Shown: one piece after another, positions 9,137-64,000 of the stretch
Layout of the letters: the number at the start of each line of letters is the position of its first letter
How positions within the stretch are numbered: the stretch's first letter is position 1
Source of the DNA: Croceivirga sp.
GTDB taxonomy: Bacteria; Bacteroidota; Bacteroidia; Flavobacteriales; Flavobacteriaceae
DNA: 64,000 bases
Direction: 5' to 3'
Assembly: GCA_028284285.1 (NCBI GenBank)
Contig: JANQSA010000051.1
Location: 62,001-126,000, forward strand
Notes under the pieces: generated by a model
Told to the model about the DNA's origin: nothing
Databases searched by the model: none
What the model saw: the letters and a program-made list of their open reading frames with translations, nothing else
Position numbers and translations under genes: made by a program

Positions 9137-10303
9137 TTAGGCAAAGTCATCCCGCGACAACTCCTGAACCAACTTTTTCAACATTTCCACTCCCTTCTCC
9201 AATTGTTCCTTAGTAATGAATTCATTAGCCCTGTGGGCCTGTGCTATGGATCCTGGCCCGCAAATAGCCGAATGAAAGCCTTCATTAGCAAATTGCCCGG
9301 CTTCTGCAGCATAGGAAACCGTATCTAATTTTGAGTTCCCGGATATTCTTTTGATCAATCCAACTACATCATCATCGGCTTTTGTATCCAAATAGGGGAC
9401 GGGTGGGTGGTTTTCAACGGTTTTAATGGAAAAATCGGGAAAGATCCTTCGCAATTCTTCTTCACGGTGTTGACAATAGGTTTCAAATTCGGAGACGATC
9501 TCTTTTATATCATCCATAGGTATGGTACGTAAATCCCAGTAAAAATGAGCCTTGTCCGCTATTACATTCGGAGCAATACCCCCGTGAACCATTCCGACAT
9601 GAATGGAAGAATGCGGCGGATGAAAACGATCATCCAAACGTCCGGCGGCAATCAGTTGGTTCATTTTGTTTTCCAACCAGAGTATCAGTCGCATGGCCTC
9701 ATGAATGGCGCTGACTTCTTGTTTTATACGACTGCTGTGTCCTGCAGAACCGTTCACATAGGTCTCCAAAATATAAATACCCTTCTGTCCGACAATGGGT
9801 TCCATTAAAGAGGGTTCCCCAATAATGGCATATTTTGGTGTTTCGGTATAGTGGGTCTTAATGGCCTGCGCCAATTCAGGTCCGGCCAAACAGCCGACTT
9901 CCTCGTCGTAGGAAAATGCAAAATAAAGTGGCTTTTTCAGGTCTGCGCCTATCATTTGAGGCAGTGCAGCCAAACAACAGGCAATAAAGCCCTTCATATC
10001 ACAAGAACCTCTACCATACAATTTACCGTCGCCTTTATCGGTCAGCACAAAAGGATCCGTGGTCCAATCCTGACCTGCTACCGGTACTACATCGGTATGG
10101 CCGGAAAGAATAACCCCGCCATCGGTATCCGGCCCTATCCTACAGTGTAATGAAGCTTTATTTCCTTCGGCGTTAGGCAATAAGTTTACTTCAACCCCGT
10201 AGGATTCAAGGTAGTCTTTTATCCAATGGATGATACTTAAATTACTATCACCTCCGAACACCGGAAAGGAAACGAGTTTTGCAAGAAGGTGTTCTACAGT
10301 CAT
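9137..10303 (-). CDS. argE: Acetylornithine deacetylase (M20 family)
   Basis: ArgE releases acetate from N-acetylornithine in arginine synthesis, and M20 relatives handle other N-acyl amino acids. The 388-residue protein has the expected length. The metal ligands are visible: His69 and Asp71 (GHTDVVPVAG), Asp102 (GRGSCDMKG) and the catalytic/bridging Glu134-Glu135 (SYDEEVGCLAG). The dimerisation domain follows from about 175 to 290. Only one base separates it from the upstream YfcC-type carrier gene, so both are cotranscribed. No other arg genes are in the window, which leaves room for a catabolic role on imported acyl amino acids or peptides. Confidence 0.85.
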   Translation of the reverse strand: MTVEHLLAKLVSFPVFGGDSNLSIIHWIKDYLESYGVEVNLLPNAEGNKASLHCRIGPDTDGGVILSGHTDVVPVAGQDWTTDPFVLTDKGDGKLYGRGSCDMKGFIACCLAALPQMIGADLKKPLYFAFSYDEEVGCLAGPELAQAIKTHYTETPKYAIIGEPSLMEPIVGQKGIYILETYVNGSAGHSSRIKQEVSAIHEAMRLILWLENKMNQLIAAGRLDDRFHPPHSSIHVGMVHGGIAPNVIADKAHFYWDLRTIPMDDIKEIVSEFETYCQHREEELRRIFPDFSIKTVENHPPVPYLDTKADDDVVGLIKRISGNSKLDTVSYAAEAGQFANEGFHSAICGPGSIAQAHRANEFITKEQLEKGVEMLKKLVQELSRDDFA

Positions 10304-10304
10304 A

Positions 10305-11708
10305 TTAACTATAATTTATGGTCACAGCTACTATTAAGGCCAAAAAGGCAATACCGAGTAGACTTATCAAGACAGGAAAGATAAAACGAATCCATCTGTC
10401 AATCGGTACACGGCACATACTGAGCATAGCGATAAGCCCTCCAAGGGTTGGATTCACAAGGTTAGAAAGGCCATCACCGATTTGAAACGCCAGAATAGTA
10501 ATTTGCCGGGTTAGTCCCAGGGATTCTCCAAGCGGAAGCATAACGGGCAAGGTGGCTAAGGCCTGTCCGCTTCCGGAGGGAATAAAAAAATTGATTACCG
10601 TTTGGGAGATAGTCATGCAAATGGCTGAGGCATATAAAGGTAAACCTTGTAATACAGTGGAGAGTTGATGCGAAATAGTATCTCCGATGTTTCCCATTTC
10701 CATAAGCACTTTTATAGAGGTCGCAAAACCTACCATAAAGGCTCCGGGCGCAGCGATACTCACTGCTTTTAATACGGTCTCGCTCATAGCTGTAGCGCTC
10801 ATTCGCGATACCAAACCTGATAAAAAAGCAATGATCAGGAATACCGCCGAAAGCTCATTAATGTACCAATTCAAGTTAAATACGCCATATAAAACCGCCA
10901 AAAGACCCGCTATAAAAATGGCAAGGACCATCCGGTTATTTCCGGTCAATTGATATTCCTGAATGGGTCTCGATAAGGTCAATTCTGTTGTATTGAGACC
11001 ATGGCCAAGACTCTTTTGCGGCTGTAACATGATCCTTTTGAAGTACCTCACATTATAATAGGCCATTATACTCAAGGCTGTGAGACAAAGTATGCTTCGC
11101 AGTACCGCTCCGGAAAACATGGGCAGTTCAGCGATCTTATGTCCGGTGCCAACGGTATAAGGATTGATTGGCGATAATCCGAATCCAATGGTCATGGCTC
11201 CTACCGAAATACCGGCGGCCAAAATCAGATCCCCACCCAGTGCAAGACTGAGTACTGCGGCTATGGGTACCATGGCAATATTGTTTTCGTACCCCACTGC
11301 AACACCAAGTAGCCCGTAGATAAAAGTCATGATGACAATTATGAGGTGTTTGTTTTTTAGGCCCAGCTTTTTAACGAGTGTACCGACGGCATTTTCTACG
11401 GCTTTCGATTTTTCCATAAAGCCAAACATGATACCTCCTGCCAGGACAATAAATATAATCTCTACTGCCGCTTTGAATCCTAACGGTATGGCTTTGAACA
11501 TATCCAGAAATCCAACGGGTGTGGCGGAAATTGTTTTGTACGAATTGGGAACCACGGTATTTCGGCCGTCCACTACAACCCGTTCATACGTTCCGGCGGG
11601 GAGGAGGTAGGTTAACAGGGTCACCAGGACAATTATGGAAAACAACATGCTTATGGCATGCGGTATACGGCTAAAAAAAGATTTGGTTTTAGACTTTGAT
11701 GTAGTCAT
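10305..11708 (-). CDS. YfcC-family amino acid/peptide carrier
   Basis: The 467-residue integral membrane protein has about 12 helices. The N-terminus (SFFSRIPHAISMLFSIIVL, then LLPAGTYERVVVDGR) and the motif PSGSGQALATLPVMLPLGE fit the YfcC/DcuC-like family, often annotated as arginine/ornithine antiporters or C4-dicarboxylate carriers. The gene precedes argE by one base. An imported substrate that ArgE deacylates is plausible but unproven. The 243-base upstream gap (11709-11951) should hold its promoter. Confidence 0.75.
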   Translation of the reverse strand: MTTSKSKTKSFFSRIPHAISMLFSIIVLVTLLTYLLPAGTYERVVVDGRNTVVPNSYKTISATPVGFLDMFKAIPLGFKAAVEIIFIVLAGGIMFGFMEKSKAVENAVGTLVKKLGLKNKHLIIVIMTFIYGLLGVAVGYENNIAMVPIAAVLSLALGGDLILAAGISVGAMTIGFGLSPINPYTVGTGHKIAELPMFSGAVLRSILCLTALSIMAYYNVRYFKRIMLQPQKSLGHGLNTTELTLSRPIQEYQLTGNNRMVLAIFIAGLLAVLYGVFNLNWYINELSAVFLIIAFLSGLVSRMSATAMSETVLKAVSIAAPGAFMVGFATSIKVLMEMGNIGDTISHQLSTVLQGLPLYASAICMTISQTVINFFIPSGSGQALATLPVMLPLGESLGLTRQITILAFQIGDGLSNLVNPTLGGLIAMLSMCRVPIDRWIRFIFPVLISLLGIAFLALIVAVTINYS

Positions 11709-54983: not shown

Positions 54984-55349
54984 CTAGTCCAACGATTTCA
55001 CCTTAACGTCGGAGGCACAGCTTTCCACTATGATAACCCTATCCGCATCGTTTTTTATCCGGTAGATCTTACAGGGTTCGGCTTTCGTATCGCTCTTCCG
55101 AAAATCTACATTTCCTTCGGTAAAAAAAGAATGCCACAGCACCGAATCCCGGGAAAAACGAGCTTCCAACCCTGGGGAATACGTAATCGGTTTGGCCCTG
55201 AGGTCCTTTAATACCCTGCAGTTGGGGAAGTAACAGAATTCTACGCCTTTTTCCCCGGCCTTTTTTTGCACAAAGAAGACCAGAAAAACCAGTCCAAGGG
55301 ACAGTCCTACCAGATACCAGCCCAATCGTCGTAAAAAACCGCCTCCCAT
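54984..55349 (-). CDS. DUF4258-type small membrane-anchored protein
   Basis: The 121-residue protein has one N-terminal helix (about 8-28, YLVGLSLGLVFLVFFV) and a soluble domain with CYFPNCRVLKDLRAKPI, conserved cysteines and CKIYRIKNDADRVIIVESC. Its ATG overlaps the ald stop codon as TAATG, so translation is coupled. Conserved beside ald in flavobacteria; function unknown. Confidence 0.7.
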   Translation of the reverse strand: MGGGFLRRLGWYLVGLSLGLVFLVFFVQKKAGEKGVEFCYFPNCRVLKDLRAKPITYSPGLEARFSRDSVLWHSFFTEGNVDFRKSDTKAEPCKIYRIKNDADRVIIVESCASDVKVKSLD

Positions 55350-56548
55350 TAAAAGATCAAGAAATTAATATCACTGTAGGACAACCCAAACCAGTCGCCC
55401 ACAGATTTATTGGTCAGGATGCCGTGGTACATATACAGGCCGTTCCGTAACCCTTTATCAAATCGCAATGCGTTTTCCAGTCCGCCATCCTCACCGATTT
55501 TAAGCAAATAGGGGGTAAAGATATTACTGATGGAAATAGAAGAGGTACGTGGATAGCGGGAGGGGATGTTGGGCACCCCGTAATGGATCACCCCATATTT
55601 TTCTACCGTAGGTTTCTCGTGATCTGTCACCTCGGAACTTTCAAAACACCCGCCCATATCAATGCTCACATCAATGATGACAGCGCCTTTTTTCATGTTT
55701 TCCACCATACTGGTAGAGACCACCACCGGAGAACGGTCCTTGCCCCGGGTAGCGCCAATGGCCACGTCACAGCGCTTCAACGCTTTTAAAAGATTCTTAG
55801 GCTGTATGGTTGAGGTGTATACCGTCTGATTCAAATTGGTCTGGATGTTCCGCAGTTTGGTAATGGAATTATCAAATACCTTGATGTTAGCGCCCAGGCC
55901 CAAGGCGGATCGGGCGGCAAACTCCCCCACCGTACCGGCGCCTATGATCACCACTTCTACGGGCGGTACGCCACTGATGTTGCCAAACATCAATCCGTTG
56001 CCCTGGTTGGCGGCAGCCATCAATTCTGCTGCCACCAGAATGGAAGAGATCCCGGCAATCTCACTTAGGGAACGCACAGCGGGATATTTCCCATCTTCAT
56101 CCCGGATATACTCAAAAGCTATGGCGGTGATCCGTTTTCTGGCCAGTTGTTCAAAATATTTTTTGGATTGTGTTTTGATCTGCAGGGCAGAGATCACAAT
56201 GGCCTGGGGATTCATCAATTCGATCTCCGAAAGGGTAGGGGGCTCCACCTTAAGCAGTAGCGGGCAGGAAAACACTTTTTTGGTGTCTTTGGAAATCTCG
56301 GCTCCGGCATTGGTGTAGTCCAGGTCAGAATAATTGGCAGATTCTCCGGCGCCGGATTCAATGAGTACGCGATGTCCGTGGGCCGTAATCGCGTTGACCG
56401 CATCCGGGGTAAGGCAGATACGTTTTTCCTGGTATTGGTTTTCTTTGGGCAGGCCGATAAACAATTCCCCTTTTTGTTGGATCACTTCCAGGGTTTCCTC
56501 CTGGGGCAATAATTGTTGCCGGCTAAAGGGCGAGGCAGGTTGCTCCAT
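55349..56548 (-). CDS. ald: Alanine dehydrogenase
   Basis: Ald interconverts L-alanine and pyruvate with NAD. The 399-residue protein has the N-terminal catalytic domain (GLPKENQYQEKRICLTPDAV, the substrate-binding region) and the NAD-binding GAGTVGEFAARSALGLGA. The longer N-terminus (about 30 residues) relative to standard Ald is typical of Bacteroidota. The C-terminal part YGVPNIPSRYPRTSSISISN is conserved. It is followed by a coupled DUF4258-type gene; upstream lies the accessory 186-residue membrane protein gene. Confidence 0.9.
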   Translation of the reverse strand: MEQPASPFSRQQLLPQEETLEVIQQKGELFIGLPKENQYQEKRICLTPDAVNAITAHGHRVLIESGAGESANYSDLDYTNAGAEISKDTKKVFSCPLLLKVEPPTLSEIELMNPQAIVISALQIKTQSKKYFEQLARKRITAIAFEYIRDEDGKYPAVRSLSEIAGISSILVAAELMAAANQGNGLMFGNISGVPPVEVVIIGAGTVGEFAARSALGLGANIKVFDNSITKLRNIQTNLNQTVYTSTIQPKNLLKALKRCDVAIGATRGKDRSPVVVSTSMVENMKKGAVIIDVSIDMGGCFESSEVTDHEKPTVEKYGVIHYGVPNIPSRYPRTSSISISNIFTPYLLKIGEDGGLENALRFDKGLRNGLYMYHGILTNKSVGDWFGLSYSDINFLIF

Positions 56549-56575: not shown

Positions 56576-57136
56576 TTACAGATTTTTTGCAAGGGTTTCC
56601 TTACGTTGCTCCAGCTTCTCCCGTTCTTTACGCAGTTCTTCTTTTTCCTTTAATACCTGGAGTTCGGCATCCATGGCCTCCAGGTCAATGCCGTGTACAT
56701 GTTTGTCATACAGTTTAACACGAATAAAGTACACAAAAGGAATGACCACCACACAAATGGGTAGTAACCACATGATGTTTTCACTATCAATAGTTTCATC
56801 TTGATAAAAATATACCTCGAAAATTTGGAACACGTACATTAAGAGCGGAATTAAAATAATATGATACCACCAGTGTTTACAGGTAAAAAACCAGATTAAC
56901 AAAAGATATAGAGGCACTAATTTTCCTAGAACGAACCAGCCATGTCCTTCAATTGATGGGAATCCATTTTTACCAATTTCCATCCACAAAAACCTAACTG
57001 TTTCTATAGACTCATCATCAGGAAGATATTCATGACTTTTAAAAACAAAAGGAGATAGAACGATTAGAAATGCCAAAAAGGATTCTATCAATATTCGCTT
57101 TTTTGCTAGCTTATTGAATTTCGTTTTAGCTGGCAT
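56576..57136 (-). CDS. Single-module member of an unrecognised membrane-protein family
   Basis: The 186-residue protein has four hydrophobic helices (about 16-33, 64-83, 86-108, 117-137) and a charged C-terminal coiled coil (about 148-184, rich in KEKEELRKEREKLEQRK). The segment NGFPSIEGHGWFVLGKLVP, then CKHWWYHIILIPLLMYVFQI, aligns with the second half of the three proteins at 58003-61283 (GFPD...K...WWRYALLFPILLTVYQL). It is therefore the one-module form of that family. It stands between ald and tsaE, on the same strand as both. No function known; membrane location with a cytoplasmic helical tail is inferred from charge distribution. Confidence 0.7.
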   Translation of the reverse strand: MPAKTKFNKLAKKRILIESFLAFLIVLSPFVFKSHEYLPDDESIETVRFLWMEIGKNGFPSIEGHGWFVLGKLVPLYLLLIWFFTCKHWWYHIILIPLLMYVFQIFEVYFYQDETIDSENIMWLLPICVVVIPFVYFIRVKLYDKHVHGIDLEAMDAELQVLKEKEELRKEREKLEQRKETLAKNL

Positions 57137-57164
57137 TAAAAAATTGTTTATAATCTAAACAACG

Positions 57165-57192
57165 AAAAAAGGGCAACCATATTTTGTTGCCC
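57165..57192 (-). terminator. Rho-independent terminator of the 43-residue gene
   Basis: On the minus strand GGGCAAC pairs with GTTGCCC around an 8-base loop, followed by six T. It begins 30 bases after the small gene's stop and lies before the ATG of the next minus-strand gene (57136). Confidence 0.8.
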
Positions 57193-57221
57193 CTGAATTT
57201 TGTAAAAGAAAGCCTTAAATA

Positions 57222-57353
57222 CTACTTCTTTTTTTGCATGGTGTGCTTTCTTTTAACTCCTGTGTCTTGACCATCAATAATATAAGAAGATGCCGAGGCA
57301 GCAACTAACATAACAATAGCCAAGAGACCAAAAATGAGTTTTCTAGTGTTCAT
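57222..57353 (-). CDS. 43-residue secreted or membrane peptide
   Basis: The frame from ATG 57353 to TAG encodes MNTRKLIFGLLAIVMLVAAS, then ASSYIIDGQDTGVKRKHTMQ and a lysine tail: a textbook signal-anchor segment followed by a basic hydrophilic tail. A -7 element TACATTTG (minus strand, plus 57396-57403) 42 bases upstream and a strong terminator at 57165-57192 bracket it exactly. This makes it a convincing small gene despite its size. It is a possible secreted peptide or toxin-like peptide in the accessory region; function unknown. Confidence 0.7.
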   Translation of the reverse strand: MNTRKLIFGLLAIVMLVAASASSYIIDGQDTGVKRKHTMQKKK

Positions 57354-57395
57354 CGTACTACATTTTTTGGTTAATAAAATGAATTCATTCGATTC

Positions 57396-57403
57396 CAAAT
57401 GTA
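57396..57403 (-). promoter_or_regulatory. -7 element of the 43-residue gene
   Basis: Minus strand TACATTTG, a perfect TAnnTTTG match. About 20 bases upstream on that strand is CATTTTCTATAAT (plus 57414-57426), which contains TTTTCTA, resembling the TATTTTCTA boxes at 61701-61709 and elsewhere in this region. Confidence 0.6.
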
Positions 57404-57525
57404 GGAAAATTTATTATAGAAAATGCATTTTGTCGATATTTTTTGCATTTTAACCGAAAAATTGACCCTTTTGTCGAAGGAATGAATTGTTGTTTGAAGA
57501 TACTAAAACCTCATGAGGAGGGGGT

Positions 57526-57948
57526 TTACCTTCCGGAATACTCGATACTTCGGGTAGTTTCGTCGACAAACTGCAAGCGGAGGGCCATGTGGTCTTCGGG
57601 CAAGAGATTGGGGATCTTTTCCGGCCATTCGATAAAAACATAGGCGCCGCTGGAAAAATAGTCTTCCAATCCCAGGTCCAGGGCCTCTTTTTCAGATTGA
57701 ATTCTATAAAAATCAAAATGGTAGGCGAGTAGCTCTCCCCGGGCATCTACATATTCATTAACAATGGTAAAGCTGGGGCTGTGCCCGGTATCTTTCCCTC
57801 CCAAAACCCGGATCATGGCTTTGATCAAGGTGGTTTTGCCGGTGCCCATAGGTCCATAAAAACAAAAGACTTTTTGCAGGGATGCCTTCAATAGGGTTAT
57901 AGTAAGCCAGGGAAGGTCACTTTCTTTGTAGACTATCTTCGAAACCAC
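57526..57948 (-). CDS. tsaE: tRNA threonylcarbamoyladenosine synthesis ATPase TsaE
   Basis: TsaE is the ATPase that supports TsaB/TsaD in making t6A at position 37 of ANN-decoding tRNAs. The 140-residue protein has the P-loop GPMGTGKTTLIKAM, the SPSFTIVNEY loop and the DFYRI-x-LGLEDYF motif with EWPEKI near the end, all complete. Translation starts at GTG 57948; I see no ATG nearby. It is normally near ald in flavobacteria; here the small gene and the single-module membrane gene lie between them. Confidence 0.93.
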   Translation of the reverse strand: MVSKIVYKESDLPWLTITLLKASLQKVFCFYGPMGTGKTTLIKAMIRVLGGKDTGHSPSFTIVNEYVDARGELLAYHFDFYRIQSEKEALDLGLEDYFSSGAYVFIEWPEKIPNLLPEDHMALRLQFVDETTRSIEYSGR

Positions 57949-58002
57949 TACATTTAAAATTACAGAATATTGTATTACTGTTTTTACAAAACTTCTCCAT
58001 TA

Positions 58003-59049
58003 ATGAATACTACCAAAATTCTTTTATCAAAAAAAGACCATTTTTTTCAGAATCTGGTTTTTGTGATTTTGATTTTGGCCAATTCGTTGATATTGCAATT
58101 CCATTTACTTGGCGAGGAAACTTCATCTAATTTAAGGTTTAACGGGAAAACACTATCGCATGTTTACGACAGTGATCAAATGTTCTATTGGATACTGTTA
58201 AGTTATTTTCAGCTACTCGCATTTCATGTTATTTTCTTTTTTACAGTTAAAACAGGGATTAGATATTTTGCACTGTTTGGAATATTCTGGCATACCTGGG
58301 GTTTAACAAATGAGCTTTTATTGTTATTCGATTTGAACTATTACAGGGATACAATAAAACTGTTATTGATGTGTACGGTCCTCTTTTTGGGAATTCTGGA
58401 GTTTGTGCGAAGTGTACTACGCAAAAAGAAGCCCATAGATTCTGATCAGACAGGCAAATCACTCGGATATTATCTGCTAATTACCGTTTTCATGTTCGGG
58501 CCCATGCTGATGGAAAAAATCTCTTATGAACTATCTTCCGGTAAAGATACTTACGTTATTCTTGGCGTACCCATAGGTAGTCGCGGTTTTCCGGATTTTT
58601 CACTACTGGTTTGGTTTACAAGTTTAAAATTGCAATTGGTTTTTCCTTTGATCGTTTTATTCCTGCATCTGAAAGCATGGTGGCGCTATGCGTTACTTTT
58701 TCCCATATTGCTAACCGTTTATCAATTGAGAAGTGGCTTGAACCCCAATCTAAAGGACATCGATGCATATGAGATTTTTGAAGCCGCACCCTTATTACTT
58801 ATAGTGTTGGCGCTGTTATTGTTTCTCTCCCGGTCCGCCTACTATCAATCCAAAACCGCCCGGCTCTTCAAACGGGCTGCAAAAAATGTAGAAGCTTTGG
58901 TCCAGGTCCGATTTAAAAAACAGGAGCATTTTCTAAAAAATGCTAAAGCACGATTCACCCAGTTGAAATCGGACAAAGATCCGAATGAACAAGAACTACG
59001 CGACCTAAAACAGCATTTGGAAAAAGAACTCCAGGAATACGAACGTTGA
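58003..59049 (+). CDS. Double-module member of the unrecognised membrane family (1)
   Basis: A 348-residue protein from ATG 58003 (MNTTKILL). Two related modules of about four helices: residues about 14-140 (FVILILANSLILQ... RYFALFGIFWHTWGL) and about 160-290 (DTYVILGVPIGSRGFPDFS ... AWWRYALLFPILLTVYQL). A basic coiled coil follows (about 300-345, ending EQELRDLKQHLEKELQEYER). It shares these features with the next two genes but is the most diverged of the three. It starts 54 bases from tsaE, divergent. I do not recognise the family; a sensor or immunity role in the membrane is possible. Confidence 0.7.
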   Translation: MNTTKILLSKKDHFFQNLVFVILILANSLILQFHLLGEETSSNLRFNGKTLSHVYDSDQMFYWILLSYFQLLAFHVIFFFTVKTGIRYFALFGIFWHTWGLTNELLLLFDLNYYRDTIKLLLMCTVLFLGILEFVRSVLRKKKPIDSDQTGKSLGYYLLITVFMFGPMLMEKISYELSSGKDTYVILGVPIGSRGFPDFSLLVWFTSLKLQLVFPLIVLFLHLKAWWRYALLFPILLTVYQLRSGLNPNLKDIDAYEIFEAAPLLLIVLALLLFLSRSAYYQSKTARLFKRAAKNVEALVQVRFKKQEHFLKNAKARFTQLKSDKDPNEQELRDLKQHLEKELQEYER

Positions 59050-59086
59050 TGCCTTACAGCCTGTGCCGACGTATTTCACCCTTTTA

Positions 59087-59095
59087 TAGAAAATA
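59087..59095 (+). promoter_or_regulatory. TAGAAAATA box upstream of membrane gene 2
   Basis: The nonamer lies 54 bases before ATG 59150. Exactly 24 bases separate it from the probable -7 element TATCTTTT (59120-59127). The same box and spacing recur at 60210-60218. It is identical to the inverted boxes at 61701-61709 and 61781-61789. Confidence 0.45.
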
Positions 59096-59149
59096 GTCGT
59101 AGTAAAACAAAAAAATCGGTATCTTTTGGCGCCTATCTAACCTCAAAGA

Positions 59150-60175
59150 ATGATAGCTAAAAACCAAAAAAACACCTTCGGTAAAGAAGTGTGGCTAGCC
59201 TTAATCATTATAGGCAATTGCTTGATTGGGCTGTTACATCTACCGGTAGATCCACAGTTTTCCACCCTTCACGTATTGGGCTATGAATACCATCATGATT
59301 TTGTCAACAATCGGGCATTCGTATGGTTTACAATTTGTCATTTACAAATACTGGTGTATACTATGCTGTGTTTTTACTTCAGCAAAAGACGGGTTAAATG
59401 GGCTTTATCCTTTTTAATGTATTGGATGGTGTATACGCTGGTTTGGGATATATTTCAATGGGCAAATGGGAACACCGTACTAATGACGCAGAGCCTGAGT
59501 ATTTTGTTGACGATTATTTTGATTGGGGTATTGGTAAGTAGAAAAATTAAGCGGGAAGGAAGTAAGGATCATATCTTTAAATTCAAAAAGTACAAATCTG
59601 ATGTGTTCATAGCAATACTAATCATTTTTCTACCTTATTTAGAAAAAAGTATTTTTCATCTACCATTTGATCTGCGGGAACTACATATACTGGGGTTAAC
59701 CATTTCCAGTAGTGGATTTCCCAATATCAGTTCATTTTTGGGTTACCTGTTATTAAAAGTGTATTTGTTACTTCCTACGCTGCTATGCTTTTTTGAAGTA
59801 AAAAAGTGGTGGCGTTATGCCTTATTAATTCCGATTTTACTGGCCATCTTTCAGATTAGGACCGCGCTTAACCCCGATACGGAAGATTTGGACACCTATG
59901 AAGTTATCCAGGCCTTACCTTTGTTGCTTTCGGTATTGTTCTTACTGCTTTTTCTCTCCAGAACTGCCTATTATCAATCAAGAATGATGCGATTGTACCA
60001 AACCACCTATCATAATCTGGAGGTGTTGGTGCACAAAAGACTTCAAAATCGGGAAGCCTTTTTAAAAACCACAAAGGAAAAATGGCAGCAATTAAAAACT
60101 ACCTCGTCAGATGAGCAGGAATTATTGGACTTAAAACAACATTTGGAACGAGAGCTTAAAAAACAGGGGCGTTGA
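59150..60175 (+). CDS. Double-module member of the unrecognised membrane family (2)
   Basis: The 341-residue protein has the same two-module plan. Module 1 contains LHVLGYEYHHDF and KRRVKWALSFLMYWMVYTL; module 2 contains LHILGLTISSSGFPNISSF and KKWWRYALLIPILLAIFQI. The internal similarity is plain by eye, so the protein arose by duplication of a module like that at 56576. The C-terminal coiled coil (LEVLVHKRLQNREAFLKTTK to the end) is nearly identical to that of the next gene, whereas the N-terminal modules differ more. About eight helices. Function unknown. Confidence 0.7.
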   Translation: MIAKNQKNTFGKEVWLALIIIGNCLIGLLHLPVDPQFSTLHVLGYEYHHDFVNNRAFVWFTICHLQILVYTMLCFYFSKRRVKWALSFLMYWMVYTLVWDIFQWANGNTVLMTQSLSILLTIILIGVLVSRKIKREGSKDHIFKFKKYKSDVFIAILIIFLPYLEKSIFHLPFDLRELHILGLTISSSGFPNISSFLGYLLLKVYLLLPTLLCFFEVKKWWRYALLIPILLAIFQIRTALNPDTEDLDTYEVIQALPLLLSVLFLLLFLSRTAYYQSRMMRLYQTTYHNLEVLVHKRLQNREAFLKTTKEKWQQLKTTSSDEQELLDLKQHLERELKKQGR

Positions 60176-60209
60176 TGCTATCCGGATTTTCCTATTCATG
60201 GAACTCTAG

Positions 60210-60218
60210 TAGAAAATA
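60210..60218 (+). promoter_or_regulatory. TAGAAAATA box upstream of membrane gene 3
   Basis: Identical nonamer 54 bases before ATG 60273, with the same 24-base spacing to a -7-like TATCTTCC (60243-60250) as in the preceding gene. The flanking sequence has diverged between the two copies more than the box. Confidence 0.45.
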
Positions 60219-60272
60219 CTCAAAATATAAAGAAAAATCCTGTATCTTCCTTTGCCCATTTAACTTGGGGTA

Positions 60273-61283
60273 ATGGTAGCTAAAAATCGAAAAAGTCCAT
60301 TTGTCAAAGAAGTGTTATTGGCACTTCTGATTTTGGGTAATTGTCTGTTGCCACAACTGCATTTGTGGGTTAGCGATGAACTTACCAGAATTACCGTATT
60401 CGGTTATGACTATAGTCATGGTTACTCCAGTAATCAAGAATTTATTTGGAGGCTATTATGTTATGTTCAAATACTGATTTACATCCTTATTTCTTTCTAT
60501 TGTACTGCAAGAAGGTACAAGTACGCCTTACTTGCACTGATATATTGGGTAGTCTATAATACATTAGTTTGTCTAACACCTATTGCTATCTTAGAAGAGA
60601 TACGATCCGTTTTACTGTGGTCCGCAGTATTCATCACATTGTTTTTGGTGAATGTAAAACTAGTAATGGCTGGAGAGAAAAGCTTTACGTTCAAACTACC
60701 CAAAGACAAATTGGATGTAAGTATTGTCGTTGTTCTTTTGCTACTTCCTCTTTTACATAGATTATCGTATAACTTGCCTCAGGGTATTCGGGAAATAACA
60801 ATATTGGGGCATACTGTTTCAAGTTTTGGTTTTCAAGATTTAGACGCCTTTTTTACCTACTTATTCCTTAAAATTTACATTCTGGTCCCATTATTATTTT
60901 TCTTTTTGGCTACAAAAAGATGGTGGAAATATGCATTGCTTGTCCCTATCCTTTTAGTGGTATTTCAACTAAAGACAGCCTTTAATCCCCATTCTGAATA
61001 TTTAGATACCTATGAAGTGGTTCACGCCTTACCTTTATTGATTTCGGTATTAATATTGTTACTTTTCCTCTCCAAAGCTGCCTACTACCAGTCAAAAATG
61101 GTGCGATTGTACCAAACCACGTATGATACTCTGGAGGTGTTGGTGCACAAAAGATTCCAAAATAGAGAAGAATTTCTAAAGACAATAAAAGAAAAGTGGC
61201 AGCAATTAAAAACTACCCCGTCAGATGAGCAGGAATTATTGGACCTAAAACAACATCTGGAACAAGAGCTTCGAAAAAAGTAA
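60273..61283 (+). CDS. Double-module member of the unrecognised membrane family (3)
   Basis: The 336-residue protein repeats the plan: module 1 with ITVFGYDYSHGYSSNQEF and ARRYKYALLALIYWVVYN, module 2 with ITILGHTVSSFGFQDLDAF and KRWWKYALLVPILLVVFQ, then a coiled coil ending EQELLDLKQHLEQELRKK. It is closest to gene 2, which suggests recent tandem duplication including the promoter. It ends two bases before the convergent XRE gene stop. It is the last of the tandem array and the nearest to the peptide export operon. Confidence 0.7.
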   Translation: MVAKNRKSPFVKEVLLALLILGNCLLPQLHLWVSDELTRITVFGYDYSHGYSSNQEFIWRLLCYVQILIYILISFYCTARRYKYALLALIYWVVYNTLVCLTPIAILEEIRSVLLWSAVFITLFLVNVKLVMAGEKSFTFKLPKDKLDVSIVVVLLLLPLLHRLSYNLPQGIREITILGHTVSSFGFQDLDAFFTYLFLKIYILVPLLFFFLATKRWWKYALLVPILLVVFQLKTAFNPHSEYLDTYEVVHALPLLISVLILLLFLSKAAYYQSKMVRLYQTTYDTLEVLVHKRFQNREEFLKTIKEKWQQLKTTPSDEQELLDLKQHLEQELRKK

Positions 61284-61285
61284 TA

Positions 61286-61666
61286 CTAGTCTTTTTCCCC
61301 TTTTAATTTTTCAATCTCCGCCGTCACTTCATCCAGCAGGGCACGCAATTCCCTTTCCTGTCGCTCCCGGATCTTGGCCTCAATAATACGTTCCAATTCC
61401 ATTTTCTCGCTGCTGGGTAGCTCTCCGGTCTTTAGAATAGCCTTGTCCGGATTCAACATTTCGCCTTCGCCGGTCATTAACCAGATAAGATTGAGCTGCG
61501 GATAGGTACGGATAATAGTCTCAATGACATCACTCCCGACAGAAGCGTGATTTTTCTTCATCCGGAGGGTATAGCCATTGCTGGCGCCAATGGAAAGATC
61601 AAATTGGCGGGCGCTCATACCGGAGTACTCGATAAACTGTAAAAGCCTATCAATAGTTTTTATCAT
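61286..61666 (-). CDS. XRE-family regulator next to the peptide exporter
   Basis: The 126-residue protein has an N-terminal helix-turn-helix (about 14-55, MSARQFDLSIGASNGYTLRM) and the motif YPQLNLIWLMTGEGEM as in the XRE protein at 50454. The C-terminal half is a charged coiled coil (about 88-125, AKIRERQERELRALLDEVTAEI). It is divergent from the HlyD gene (141 bases) and convergent with the membrane gene 3. TAGAAAATA boxes stand in both divergent promoters, so it probably represses both itself and the exporter operon. Confidence 0.8.
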   Translation of the reverse strand: MIKTIDRLLQFIEYSGMSARQFDLSIGASNGYTLRMKKNHASVGSDVIETIIRTYPQLNLIWLMTGEGEMLNPDKAILKTGELPSSEKMELERIIEAKIRERQERELRALLDEVTAEIEKLKGEKD

Positions 61667-61709: not shown

Positions 61710-61780
61710 TGGTTCCACCCCTATTGGACCGGGGTTTTTCCCTGTTAATAACTTCTTTTATCGATTAATTTCTTTTTAAA

Positions 61781-61800
61781 TAGAAAATATTCTACATTTG
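61781..61800 (+). promoter_or_regulatory. HlyD operon promoter with TAGAAAATA box
   Basis: TAGAAAATA (61781-61789) is followed after TTC by the -7 element TACATTTG (61793-61800). TAGAA and TTCTA (61781-61794) also form a short dyad. The ATG of hlyD is only 7 bases after the -7 element, so the mRNA may be leaderless. Confidence 0.6.
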
Positions 61801-61807
61801 ATTTGTT

Positions 61808-62959
61808 ATGAAAGTCATTTTCCCCAAGGAGATCATCGAGAATACTGTTCAGGTCTACCTGCCCAAAAACAACAGTACCGGTACAACCATTTATGGGATA
61901 GTACTCGGAGGGTTGGTTTTGGGATTGCTATCGCTACCCTTTATAAAGGTACAACTGTATTCCACTGTTCAAGGATGGATAAAACCCAGCAAAGAACGTA
62001 CCGCCTTAACGAGTATGCACCCGGGAAAAGTACTCTTTTCCGGTTTGTATCCGAATACCGAAGTAGGGCTGGGGGATACCTTACTGATTTTGCACAGTGC
62101 TCAACTGGAAGAACAACTGGCACAACAGCACTACACTTTCACACGGCTGGAGGAACAGCTTTCGGATCTACGGCATTTGGTCCAGGGAAAAGTGCATTTA
62201 TTGAAGCATTTGGTGTCTAATCCTTATAAGAAAGCCTATCTGGAGTATCAGGAACAACTTCGGGAGCACTATACCCGTATTAAAAAACTAAAGCGGGATC
62301 ATGAGCGTAATCAAAAATTACTGGCAGGTGGTGTTATTGCCCCGGTAGCCTTTGAAGATCAAAAATTGGAATACGATCTTGCCCGAAATGCCCTTCAACA
62401 ATACAAAAAAAAACAACTAAGCCACTGGCAGACCACCCTGATTGAACTGGAAGATCAACAGAAAGGGGCGGTACATCAGATCAACGCCCTGCGAGAAACC
62501 AAAAAAGAGTATGTGATCACCGCCCCGGTATGCGGGACCCTGCTTAATCTTAGGCAAGGCATAGCAAAGGGCAGTATGATTGCCGCTGGAGCGCTATTGG
62601 CTGAGATCTCCCCCGATGCCGAGGTGCTGGCGGAATGCTATATCAGCCCCATGGAGATTGGCCTCATTGATCCTGCAAAGCCTGTTAAATTTCAAATAGA
62701 TGCCTACAACTACAACCAGTGGGGCATGGCTACGGGTAACATCCTGGAGATGGGAAAGGATGTTGAATTCATCGATAACACTACGGTCTATAAAGTGCGG
62801 TGCGCCATTGATCAGAAGTATCTACAGCTTAACAACGGAGCAAAAGGACAATTAATCAAAGGGATGAGTTTTACCGCCCGATTTGAATTGGCGGAACGCA
62901 CACTTTTTCAATTGCTATATGACACCATAGACGATTGGATTCATCCCGGAACACTCTAA
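61808..62959 (+). CDS. HlyD-family membrane-fusion protein of a peptide exporter
   Basis: The 383-residue protein has a short cytoplasmic start (MKVIFPKEIIENTVQVYLPK), one membrane helix (about 26-48), a biotinyl-lipoyl-like half-motif, a coiled-coil hairpin (about 95-225) and the returning beta domain (VITAPVCGTLLNLRQGIAKGS at about 240). It links the inner-membrane C39 transporter at 63307 to an outer-membrane channel, which is not in the window. It resembles HlyD proteins of bacteriocin-type exporters in Bacteroidota. It is the first gene of the operon. Confidence 0.88.
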   Translation: MKVIFPKEIIENTVQVYLPKNNSTGTTIYGIVLGGLVLGLLSLPFIKVQLYSTVQGWIKPSKERTALTSMHPGKVLFSGLYPNTEVGLGDTLLILHSAQLEEQLAQQHYTFTRLEEQLSDLRHLVQGKVHLLKHLVSNPYKKAYLEYQEQLREHYTRIKKLKRDHERNQKLLAGGVIAPVAFEDQKLEYDLARNALQQYKKKQLSHWQTTLIELEDQQKGAVHQINALRETKKEYVITAPVCGTLLNLRQGIAKGSMIAAGALLAEISPDAEVLAECYISPMEIGLIDPAKPVKFQIDAYNYNQWGMATGNILEMGKDVEFIDNTTVYKVRCAIDQKYLQLNNGAKGQLIKGMSFTARFELAERTLFQLLYDTIDDWIHPGTL

Positions 62960-62980: not shown

Positions 62981-63295
62981 ATGAAGATGGTCACAAAAAT
63001 GGAGAACATGCTACAACTGCATGACCGTATTAAAACAAAAAATACAGGTGCTCCGGATGTCATTGCCAAAGCTTTGAATATCAGTGAAACAGAAGTGTAC
63101 TACCTGATTCAACAGCTTTTGGAATTGAATCCTTCGCTGCAGTATCATCATGAAAAATCCACTTACTATTACGCAGACGGTTTTCCCAACCATGTCGCGG
63201 TCTCTGTAGCCATTATTGCGGGTAACAATCCGATCCAGAAACTATTGAACGTCTCTTCGGACGAACCGGTTACGCATAATTTTCTGTTTGCCTAA
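62981..63295 (+). CDS. Small winged-helix-like protein between exporter genes
   Basis: The 104-residue protein has an N-terminal region (about 9-68, LHDRIKTKNTGAPDVIAKALNISETEVYYLI in two helices, then ..YHHEKSTYYYADGF) that looks like a winged helix of the DeoR/HTH type. The tail contains AVSVAIIAGNNPIQKLLNV. It is 21 bases after hlyD and 11 bases before the C39 transporter, so cotranscription is certain. It lacks a double-glycine leader, so it is not a good precursor peptide candidate. A regulator of the precursor gene is an inference. Confidence 0.55.
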   Translation: MKMVTKMENMLQLHDRIKTKNTGAPDVIAKALNISETEVYYLIQQLLELNPSLQYHHEKSTYYYADGFPNHVAVSVAIIAGNNPIQKLLNVSSDEPVTHNFLFA

Positions 63296-63306
63296 ATACT
63301 TAAGCC

Positions 63307-64000
63307 ATGGCAAAGATCACCATTAAACAACATGACATCACAGACTGCGGTGCTGCCTGCCTTGCTTCTGTAGCCGCCCACCATGGTTTTCAGTTACCCA
63401 TTTCACGTATACGGCAATATGCCGGCACCGATAAAAAAGGTACCAATGTTTTTGGGCTGATCAAAGCGGCGGAGAAAATGGGGTTTGAGGCCAAAGGAGT
63501 ACGCGGTGATTTTGAAAGCCTTTTTAAAATACCAAAACCTGCCATTGCTCATGTCATCGTTAAAGAGCGGTTGCAGCACTATGTGGTGATTTACCGGATT
63601 ACCAAAAAACATGTGTTCATCATGGACCCCGGTACCGGGAAATTGGAGAAGCGTTCCCCCGAACGTTTCAAAAAGGAATGGACCGGGGTTTTGGTTTTGC
63701 TTTTGCCTAACCAGGATTTTATAAAAGGGAATGCTAAAGTATCGCTGCTCCGAAGGTTTTGGTATTTATTACGACCGCACCGGACTGTACTGCTACAGGC
63801 TTTTGTCGGTGCTTTGGTCTACACATTGCTGGGCTTTTCCATGGCTATTTACCTGCAAAAGATCACCGATCATGTCCTGGTGAATGGTAATATCAAGCTG
63901 TTGAATCTAATGAGTTTGGTAATGCTATTGTTGTTGTTGACCCAGTTGGTCATTGGAGCATTAAAGGATATCTTTTTGATCAAAACCGGCCAACAAATTG
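63307..64000 (+). CDS. Peptidase-containing ABC transporter (C39), N-terminal part
   Basis: The frame runs off the window, so about 231 residues are visible. The N-terminal C39 peptidase domain (about 1-135) shows Cys14 in DITDCGAACLASVAAHH, His91 (QHYVVIYRI) and Asp107 (MDPGTGKLE), the complete catalytic set. Membrane helices of the ABC exporter begin near 160. Such transporters cleave double-glycine leaders and export bacteriocins or other peptides. The NBD and the precursor gene are expected outside the window. Together with HlyD it forms the export machine. Confidence 0.92.
   Translation, partial: MAKITIKQHDITDCGAACLASVAAHHGFQLPISRIRQYAGTDKKGTNVFGLIKAAEKMGFEAKGVRGDFESLFKIPKPAIAHVIVKERLQHYVVIYRITKKHVFIMDPGTGKLEKRSPERFKKEWTGVLVLLLPNQDFIKGNAKVSLLRRFWYLLRPHRTVLLQAFVGALVYTLLGFSMAIYLQKITDHVLVNGNIKLLNLMSLVMLLLLLTQLVIGALKDIFLIKTGQQI

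Follow-up and report, generated by a model that had tools for sequence, protein, structure and literature searches.

The locus and its membrane-protein family

We analysed a 64,000-bp stretch of a Croceivirga sp. contig (JANQSA010000051.1, positions 62,001 to 126,000; hereafter the window), in which a family of membrane proteins surrounds tsaE and a small gene for a putative secreted peptide accompanies one of them. The genes and sites of this part of the window are as follows.

55349..56548, reverse strand: gene labelled ald, conserved neighbour downstream of the one-module gene
56576..57136, reverse strand: one-module protein (1M), 186 amino acids, with four predicted transmembrane (TM) helices, a beta-hairpin after TM1 and a short coiled coil
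57165..57192, reverse strand: terminator-like hairpin GGGCAAC..GTTGCCC with a T run, between the peptide gene and 1M
57222..57353, reverse strand: small secreted-peptide gene, 43 amino acids, MNTRKLIFGLLAIVMLVAASASSYIIDGQDTGVKRKHTMQKKK, between tsaE and 1M; signal peptide judged by eye
57396..57403, reverse strand: TACATTTG, -7 box of the Bacteroidota type, upstream of the peptide gene
57526..57948, reverse strand: tsaE, conserved neighbour
58003..59049, forward strand: two-module protein (2M), copy 1, 348 amino acids, or 359 from an upstream TTG
59150..60175, forward strand: 2M copy 2, 341 amino acids
60273..61283, forward strand: 2M copy 3, 336 amino acids

The names of ald (presumably alanine dehydrogenase), porX and the other window genes are working labels, and the genes themselves served as BLAST queries.

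The initial annotation described one one-module and three two-module proteins around tsaE, took the two halves of the long proteins to be homologous, and knew no name for the family. All three claims held. The open reading frames (ORFs) were as described, and an iterated hidden Markov model (HMM) found two module matches in each long protein (3/3) and one in the 186-residue protein. In BLASTP, the latter matched module 2 of the three long proteins (28%, E = 1e-20; 24%, E = 9e-15; 28%, E = 2e-12); its matches to module 1 were marginal (E = 0.008 and 0.18), with none to module 1 of the 341-residue protein. Profile-profile comparison of module 1 with module 2 gave a probability of 99.5 (E = 2.4e-22), and 20 column-shuffled controls reached 0.7 at most. 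AlphaFold models were generated from family alignments of 46 sequences for 1M (predicted local distance difference test, pLDDT, 81; predicted template-modelling score, pTM, 0.55) and of 37 for 2M (copy 2: pLDDT 87, pTM 0.79). Comparing the order of elements, we found the same predicted arrangement in every half, i.e., TM1, a beta-hairpin, TM2, TM3 and TM4, then a helix or coil. Lys and Arg counts for the modules point to a topology with both termini inside.

These proteins constitute a bacterial membrane-protein family that has no name and finds no counterpart in the libraries we searched. No family reached the curated cut-off in Pfam or NCBIfam, PADLOC contained none, and nothing convincing was found in PHROGs, PDB sequences or Foldseek. 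Four matches below threshold were taken as chance: phrog_9373 (unknown function; E = 0.002), DUF2070 for 1M (3 of 46 proteins, best E = 0.001), Hpt for 2M (1 of 37 proteins, E = 9e-5) and a ribosomal protein in the PDB (E = 0.16). We found no published account of the family or of its peptide in the literature searched, a weak negative as subscription papers were mostly absent from it.

Distribution and conserved neighbourhood

A profile of the four proteins matched 139 of the 199 sampled genomes of Flavobacteriaceae. In a class-wide sample of 295 genomes, four matched a second profile (A2), with nothing credible outside the family: besides the source genome itself, there were three matches at E = 3.5e-4 to 7.9e-4, which were short, two of them with stops and one inside a 1,047-residue frame, and were taken as chance. 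None of the eight other same-family genomes in that sample matched A2, and viral contigs contained no relative of the 341-residue protein. The best named loci belonged to a Flavobacteriaceae metagenome-assembled genome (1M 92%), Croceitalea and Croceivirga.

The loci analysed, including stretches of the source genome, are labelled with L numbers. Of 343 relatives, the best 80 make up the named loci, and close relatives are therefore over-represented; family-wide stretches were added by the analyst's choice. Near-duplicates (e.g., L053/L166 and L142/L176) were kept in all counts except that of repeats and codons, for which alone the precursors were made distinct. Where the contig reaches, the usual order was porX, tsaE, 1M and ald (80 named loci and further stretches), and a neighbour was displaced or without BLAST match in L047, L078, L079, L083, L084, L094 and L111, among others. 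The 2M genes are encoded on the other strand, in most cases in the interval from porX to tsaE, and single-module pairs with a gene for an XRE-like regulator (xre) can sit between 1M and ald. In L143 (1-4750; same genus), three near-alike 2M genes are located away from tsaE and the core locus.

A small peptide gene is the constant partner of 1M

The initial annotation had overlooked a small ORF in the gap between tsaE and 1M that begins like a signal peptide and has a short end, cationic in most cases. A profile built from such ORFs detected the peptide in 129 of 130 loci, some of which are the same region taken twice; the exception, L143, holds 2M genes only. Across 119 loci, the peptide gene lay upstream of every core 1M gene, i.e., those on the tsaE/ald strand (113/113), at a distance of 450 bp or less in 112 and of 527 bp in L094. 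Nineteen other single-module genes comprised five at unrelated places, each with the peptide, and 14 opposite-strand ones beside xre without it. The peptide gene preceded none of the 54 2M genes (0/68 when the xre-side single modules are included), and a single one of 124 peptide-profile matches had no module gene behind it. The peptide and 1M ORFs as called overlapped in 29 of 117 pairs.

In many loci the peptide gene looks like a transcription unit of its own. TAnnTTTG, the -7 consensus of Bacteroidota, occurred within 110 bp upstream of the peptide gene in 89 of 123 cases, against 11 expected, and terminator-like sites were detected in 65 of 88 gaps between the peptide gene and 1M, with none in shuffles. 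The hairpin 3' of the peptide gene was closely alike across several genera (about GGGCAATCAATAAATTGCCC followed by a T run). The short peptide transcript might also have an RNA role; there was no Rfam match.

All 131 peptide matches had a signal-peptide-like start after any upstream extension, and by eye no double-glycine (GG) leader. Many precursors carry a lipobox-like Cys and the C-terminal part is hydrophilic (both by eye); the last 14 residues were net positive in 88% of the 131. The proposed Sec-type peptide lacks a four-Cys pattern. Matches of peptides to DUF4992 and DUF2106 (8 of 44 each, E = 0.008 and 0.009) were below threshold and taken as chance, and those to NprX and PG1828 (eight peptides tested) involved signal-peptide residues only. 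In L139 and L146, the peptide-1M pair lies next to mutS, identified by eye, and the peptide ends in IDKDKYEVPPNG in both.

In 19 of the 118 distinct precursors, the C-terminal part of 10-16 residues is repeated two to six times. The unit follows a pattern of about [VI][DE]K.[KR][IVL].. and recurs at a spacing of 10 to 16 residues (14 arrays measured). Between units we counted 323 synonymous and 57 nonsynonymous codon differences, against 21% synonymous expected if random; this anchor-based count replaced a fixed-pattern one (296:37), which favoured identical units. The repeat units of the precursor are thus under constraint at the protein level. In addition, L178 carries six tandem peptide genes with identical C-termini ahead of one 1M, and tandem peptide-1M pairs with diverged peptides were found in L141 (three) and L172 (two). 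It looks as if the peptide dose is raised by internal repeats, tandem genes and tandem pairs, and the peptide behaves like a dosed product. This bears on an alternative without any signal, in which the peptide would be a small lipoprotein of the envelope, permanently associated with 1M in the membrane as a structural or stress complex. The lipobox-like Cys of many precursors and the mostly fixed, housekeeping neighbourhood of the core pair are consistent with such a complex, whereas several clades, and the window itself, lack the Cys, and the repeats, the six tandem genes and the diverged tandem pairs suit dosage or specificity better than a fixed stoichiometry. We regard this alternative as unlikely.

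Further occurrences of the pair

Searching the source genome with the 341-residue protein detected only the four locus proteins above noise, the fifth match having E = 0.43. When the peptide profile alone was used on the same genome (22 matches up to E = 10), a second small ORF was found on contig C13 (E = 1.8e-5). Directly behind it, and overlapping it, is the gene for a diverged four-TM protein, a far relative of the module family that the 341-residue query had missed and that the module HMM scores weakly (19 bits). The next short match (E = 0.008, L153/L162) had no four-TM neighbour. The C13 protein has relatives in 18 other genomes; in the eight loci examined, a candidate peptide (loose pattern) lay upstream of the five best relatives (L209-L213) and of two core-type ones, with none in L216. 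Next to the C13 pair (L161 5100-8231) are genes for an XRE regulator and a phage-type integrase, and a mobile element may therefore carry the pair as well. In the class-wide sample, the peptide profile matched 50 of 295 genomes, mostly at signal-peptide positions alone. Twenty-nine such loci were scanned, and none held a plausible peptide followed by a four-TM gene of this kind; one contained a 445-residue ORF with three hydrophobic stretches.

Conservation of 1M and covariation with the peptide

The cytosolic loop and tail (HWWYH; KLYDKHVHGIDLEAMD in the window) are the most conserved parts of 1M, and the outer loops are variable and acidic. Between tandem 1M paralogues, identity was 29-48% in the outer loops, 50-69% in the TM parts and 58-82% in the cytosolic parts, the contrast being slight in L172. 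Across 107 loci, which also underlie the correlations given further below for 1M, the distance between peptide C-termini correlated with that between outer loops (partial r = 0.13, p = 0.001, controlling for the ald, TM and cytosolic distances); for the cytosolic part, r was -0.03 (p = 0.70). Judged from this pattern, 1M looks receptor-like. Alternatively, 1M could be a maturation or release factor that helps to process or export the peptide, as the close adjacency of the two genes, with ORFs overlapping in a quarter of the pairs (29/117), and the cytosolic position of the most conserved 1M residues would allow. We nevertheless consider this quite improbable: no catalytic motif was recognised in 1M by eye, its outer face varies with the peptide, and 2M relatives exist without an adjoining peptide gene.

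Two-module genes, XRE-like regulator and history of the fusion

The three 2M genes of the window are followed by a regulatory gene and an export operon, with the features below.

61286..61666, reverse strand: XRE-like regulator, 126 amino acids, charged C-terminus, tail-to-tail with 2M copy 3 across a 2-bp gap
61779..61796, unstranded: operator-like site AATAGAAAATATTCTACA, two mismatches to TATAGN8CTATA
61793..61800, forward strand: TACATTTG, presumably the -7 box for the exporter operon; overlaps the preceding site
61808..62959, forward strand: HlyD-type adaptor (hlyD), which opens the export operon and is transcribed divergently from xre
62981..63295, forward strand: p104, small protein, this copy weakly like a helix-turn-helix (HTH) protein
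63307..64000, forward strand: start of a C39-peptidase ATP-binding cassette exporter, continuing beyond the window

The XRE-like protein of the window had no Pfam HTH match. It matched transcriptional regulators in PHROGs (E = 4.5e-5 and 2.8e-4) and is 28% identical (E = 7e-5) to xre2, which matches HTH_3 at 2e-7. Among 82 loci complete from porX to ald, 26 carried 2M or extra modules together with xre, none carried such modules without xre, one had xre alone and 55 had neither. Seventeen incomplete loci carried 2M, 15 of them with xre; the other two, L042 and L046, showed no xre, their contigs breaking off at the 2M genes. L085, also incomplete, has xre and no 2M. The xre gene is convergent with a module gene in 43 of 45 loci, within 100 bp in 41, and the number of 2M genes per xre locus varies from 0 to 4. 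The tight partner of 2M is xre, as the peptide gene is of 1M.

A tree was calculated from few columns and left many forks open. It included 50 of the 54 2M genes (without L164-L167), 12 of the 14 extra single modules (without those of L176) and 26 peptide-paired rows that we chose. Module 1s of different species grouped together, and module 2s mostly did so (exceptions, L117 and L178), and the fusion therefore seems older than the tandem copies. The initial annotation had proposed internal duplication followed by tandem gene duplication. This order is what the tree suggests. For the origin of the two-module form, internal duplication has an equally likely alternative, namely that two adjacent single-module genes fused, because unfused single-module pairs lie beside xre in L129, L142 (= L176) and L168. 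In L143, remnants of xre 3' ends were recognised by eye between the 2M copies (an xre BLAST label appears in L167), seemingly the trace of a recent tandem duplication.

Operator and export operon

Upstream of 23 of the 45 xre genes, the palindrome TATAGN8CTATA was exact (0.05 expected); if one mismatch is allowed, the count rises to 31 (1.3 expected). The same stretch also lies upstream of the divergent gene, namely hlyD (6/8), p104 (12/20) or p109 (4/9). We searched six genomes, selected for a fitting site, for the tight form TATAGAWTATTTTCTATA. Each held one perfect copy, by position at the xre locus every time, with one further one-mismatch site in all. Frequencies at control genes were near chance (porX 0/85, aroB 0/85, hd 2/80), as were those at ald (3/109, one of them exact; 1.5 expected) and at 2M genes (2/54; 0.8 expected). 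The operator overlaps the TAnnTTTG box toward hlyD in the exporter loci L043, L044, L045, L048 and L106, and not in L145; the operator-like site of the window shows the same overlap (61779-61800) despite its two mismatches.

The 45 xre loci comprise seven with an exporter, 18 with p104 or p109 and no exporter, and 20 with neither, counts that cover the examined DNA since some stretches end early. Beyond the window, the exporter gene of the operon is followed in L011 by p109, two double-glycine peptides and a 228-residue protein without Pfam match. The two peptides (10154-10336 and 10355-10516) are encoded side by side, carry double-glycine leaders, are rich in glycine and resemble two-peptide bacteriocins; similar ones were found in L043, L045, L048 and L145, and one in L106. 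Relatives of p104 and p109 (three tested) are HTH_11-like below the cut-off and are encoded with the exporter or alone, divergent from xre. The last residues of the p109 protein (L011 9697-10026; also L043, L045 and L145) are ..LSGG or ..LTGG and a tail of 12 residues, as if an HTH protein carried a double-glycine cut site at its C-terminus.

The initial annotation suggested that the module proteins, next to a peptide exporter and its repressor, could be immunity or sensor proteins. A peptide exporter and an HTH-like regulator are indeed nearby in the window, albeit the exporter occurs in the minority of xre loci given above; tsaE is the usual neighbour of 1M. As to function, we favour the sensor without regarding it as proven. 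Immunity could take two forms. If the small peptide were a secreted bacteriocin from which 1M, and 2M, protect the producer, its mostly cationic C-terminus, the close pairing of the genes and the proximity of 2M to a double-glycine bacteriocin-like operon in 7/45 xre loci would be readily explained. On the other hand, the module family is present in 139/199 genomes, mostly at a fixed locus where mapped, L178 has six peptide genes per one 1M, and the C-terminal part appears hydrophilic by eye; this explanation is quite unlikely. Very unlikely, in our opinion, is that 2M confers immunity to the exported double-glycine peptides while xre simply regulates the bacteriocin operon. The adjacency of 2M and the export operon in the window and the variable 2M copy number (0 to 4) fit the idea, whereas 38 of the 45 xre loci lacked an exporter in the stretch examined and the 2M genes form a separate, convergent unit.

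Comparison with known systems

In lactic acid bacteria, pheromone-induced class II bacteriocin loci are controlled by a histidine kinase and a response regulator. The present system would resemble them in combining a peptide signal, a membrane sensor and control of a C39-exported double-glycine operon, and differs in its XRE-like regulator with an operator of its own in place of kinase and response regulator, as well as in the proposed signal, which has no double-glycine leader; such leaders are confined to the separate peptides of the export operon. In the LytTR systems HdrRM and BrsRM, a membrane inhibitor, the multi-TM protein encoded next door, presumably holds a small regulator. That arrangement is also similar, whereas the regulator here is XRE-like; we set these systems apart by description.

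RRNPPA systems of Bacillota such as Rap-Phr and NprR-NprX likewise have a small precursor gene beside a receptor gene, as in the 113 core pairs, for which export and reception are putative. Among them, 'chatterers' encode more than one pheromone in a propeptide or more than one propeptide, and receptors that lack a propeptide are called 'eavesdroppers' (PMC9765709, PMC11343458); the multi-unit precursors, the multiple peptide genes and the peptide-less 2M relatives have their counterparts. The system is nevertheless not a member of the RRNPPA family: it belongs to Bacteroidota, its proteins are predicted four- and eight-TM membrane proteins without a tetratricopeptide repeat (TPR) or other Pfam family at cut-off rather than cytosolic TPR receptors, and there is no sequence relation, the NprX model covering signal-peptide residues 1-19 below the cut-off. 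Bacteroidetocins share with the window a C39 exporter and double-glycine peptides in Bacteroidota, and their described region contains a five-TM protein, the peptide, a thiol oxidoreductase and the exporter (PMC6671954). The Sec-type peptide, lacking both a GG leader and the four-Cys pattern, separates the two; the five-TM protein is known to us by description.

A possible two-part peptide-signalling system

We tentatively propose, at a probability of roughly 0.45, that the locus encodes a two-part peptide-signalling system of Flavobacteriaceae, i.e., a pheromone with a four-TM receptor, plus 2M sensors acting on a repressor. In the core part, a short separate transcription unit would yield a Sec-exported, often lipidated small precursor, and its C-terminal 10-16 residues would be released as the signal. 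The peptide may then be met by the variable acidic outer face of 1M, a predicted inner-membrane protein, which would pass the event inward via the conserved cytosolic loop and tail. In the accessory part, the 2M proteins may be fused double sensor copies that have no peptide gene of their own and hold or release the XRE-like repressor. The latter would sit on the operator beside the promoter of the divergent gene, in the window that of hlyD, the C39 exporter and the double-glycine peptides, and the peptide of the own population or of a rival would switch on bacteriocin-like export. The full version, a pheromone system of the family's own with multi-copy precursors, a four-TM receptor and eavesdropping 2M proteins that lift XRE from a bacteriocin export operon, is slightly more doubtful. 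The data establish the pairing of the genes, the protein-level constraint on the repeats, the presence of the operator at related loci and the module architecture, while secretion and cleavage of the peptide, its relation to 1M as a ligand, the action of 2M on XRE and the direction of regulation are inferred.

Several observations weigh against this proposal. The module proteins match no known receptor fold (best Foldseek E = 1.2 and 0.9), and 60 of the 199 family genomes had no match to the four-protein profile. By the anchor pattern, a single unit is recognised in 77 of the 118 precursors and no unit in 22; a precursor therefore does not need repeats. The lipobox-like Cys, judged by eye like the signal peptide, is absent from several clades and from the window, and the peptide search of the source genome also returned lipoprotein-like matches without a four-TM neighbour. 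The TM parts of 1M also track peptide distance (0.12, p = 0.015), and such distance correlations are small and can be inflated by relatedness. The outer loops of 2M track the peptide no better than its TM parts (n = 32), and the idea that 2M senses this peptide is therefore a guess. The operator was found within one mismatch at none of the 123 peptide genes; 14 of the 45 xre genes lack it at one mismatch, and the window's site has two. Finally, the TAnnTTTG box overlaps 7 of 36 sites toward the divergent gene and two toward xre.

If the proposal is correct, a large family of mostly environmental bacteria would have a peptide language of which we found no account, built from a receptor family and a peptide family that matched nothing in the libraries searched. 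Should the signal model prove wrong, two things would still merit a name: the gene pair, whose module family occurs in 139 of 199 sampled genomes of the family, and the derivative of this pair that is coupled to XRE and has a defined operator.

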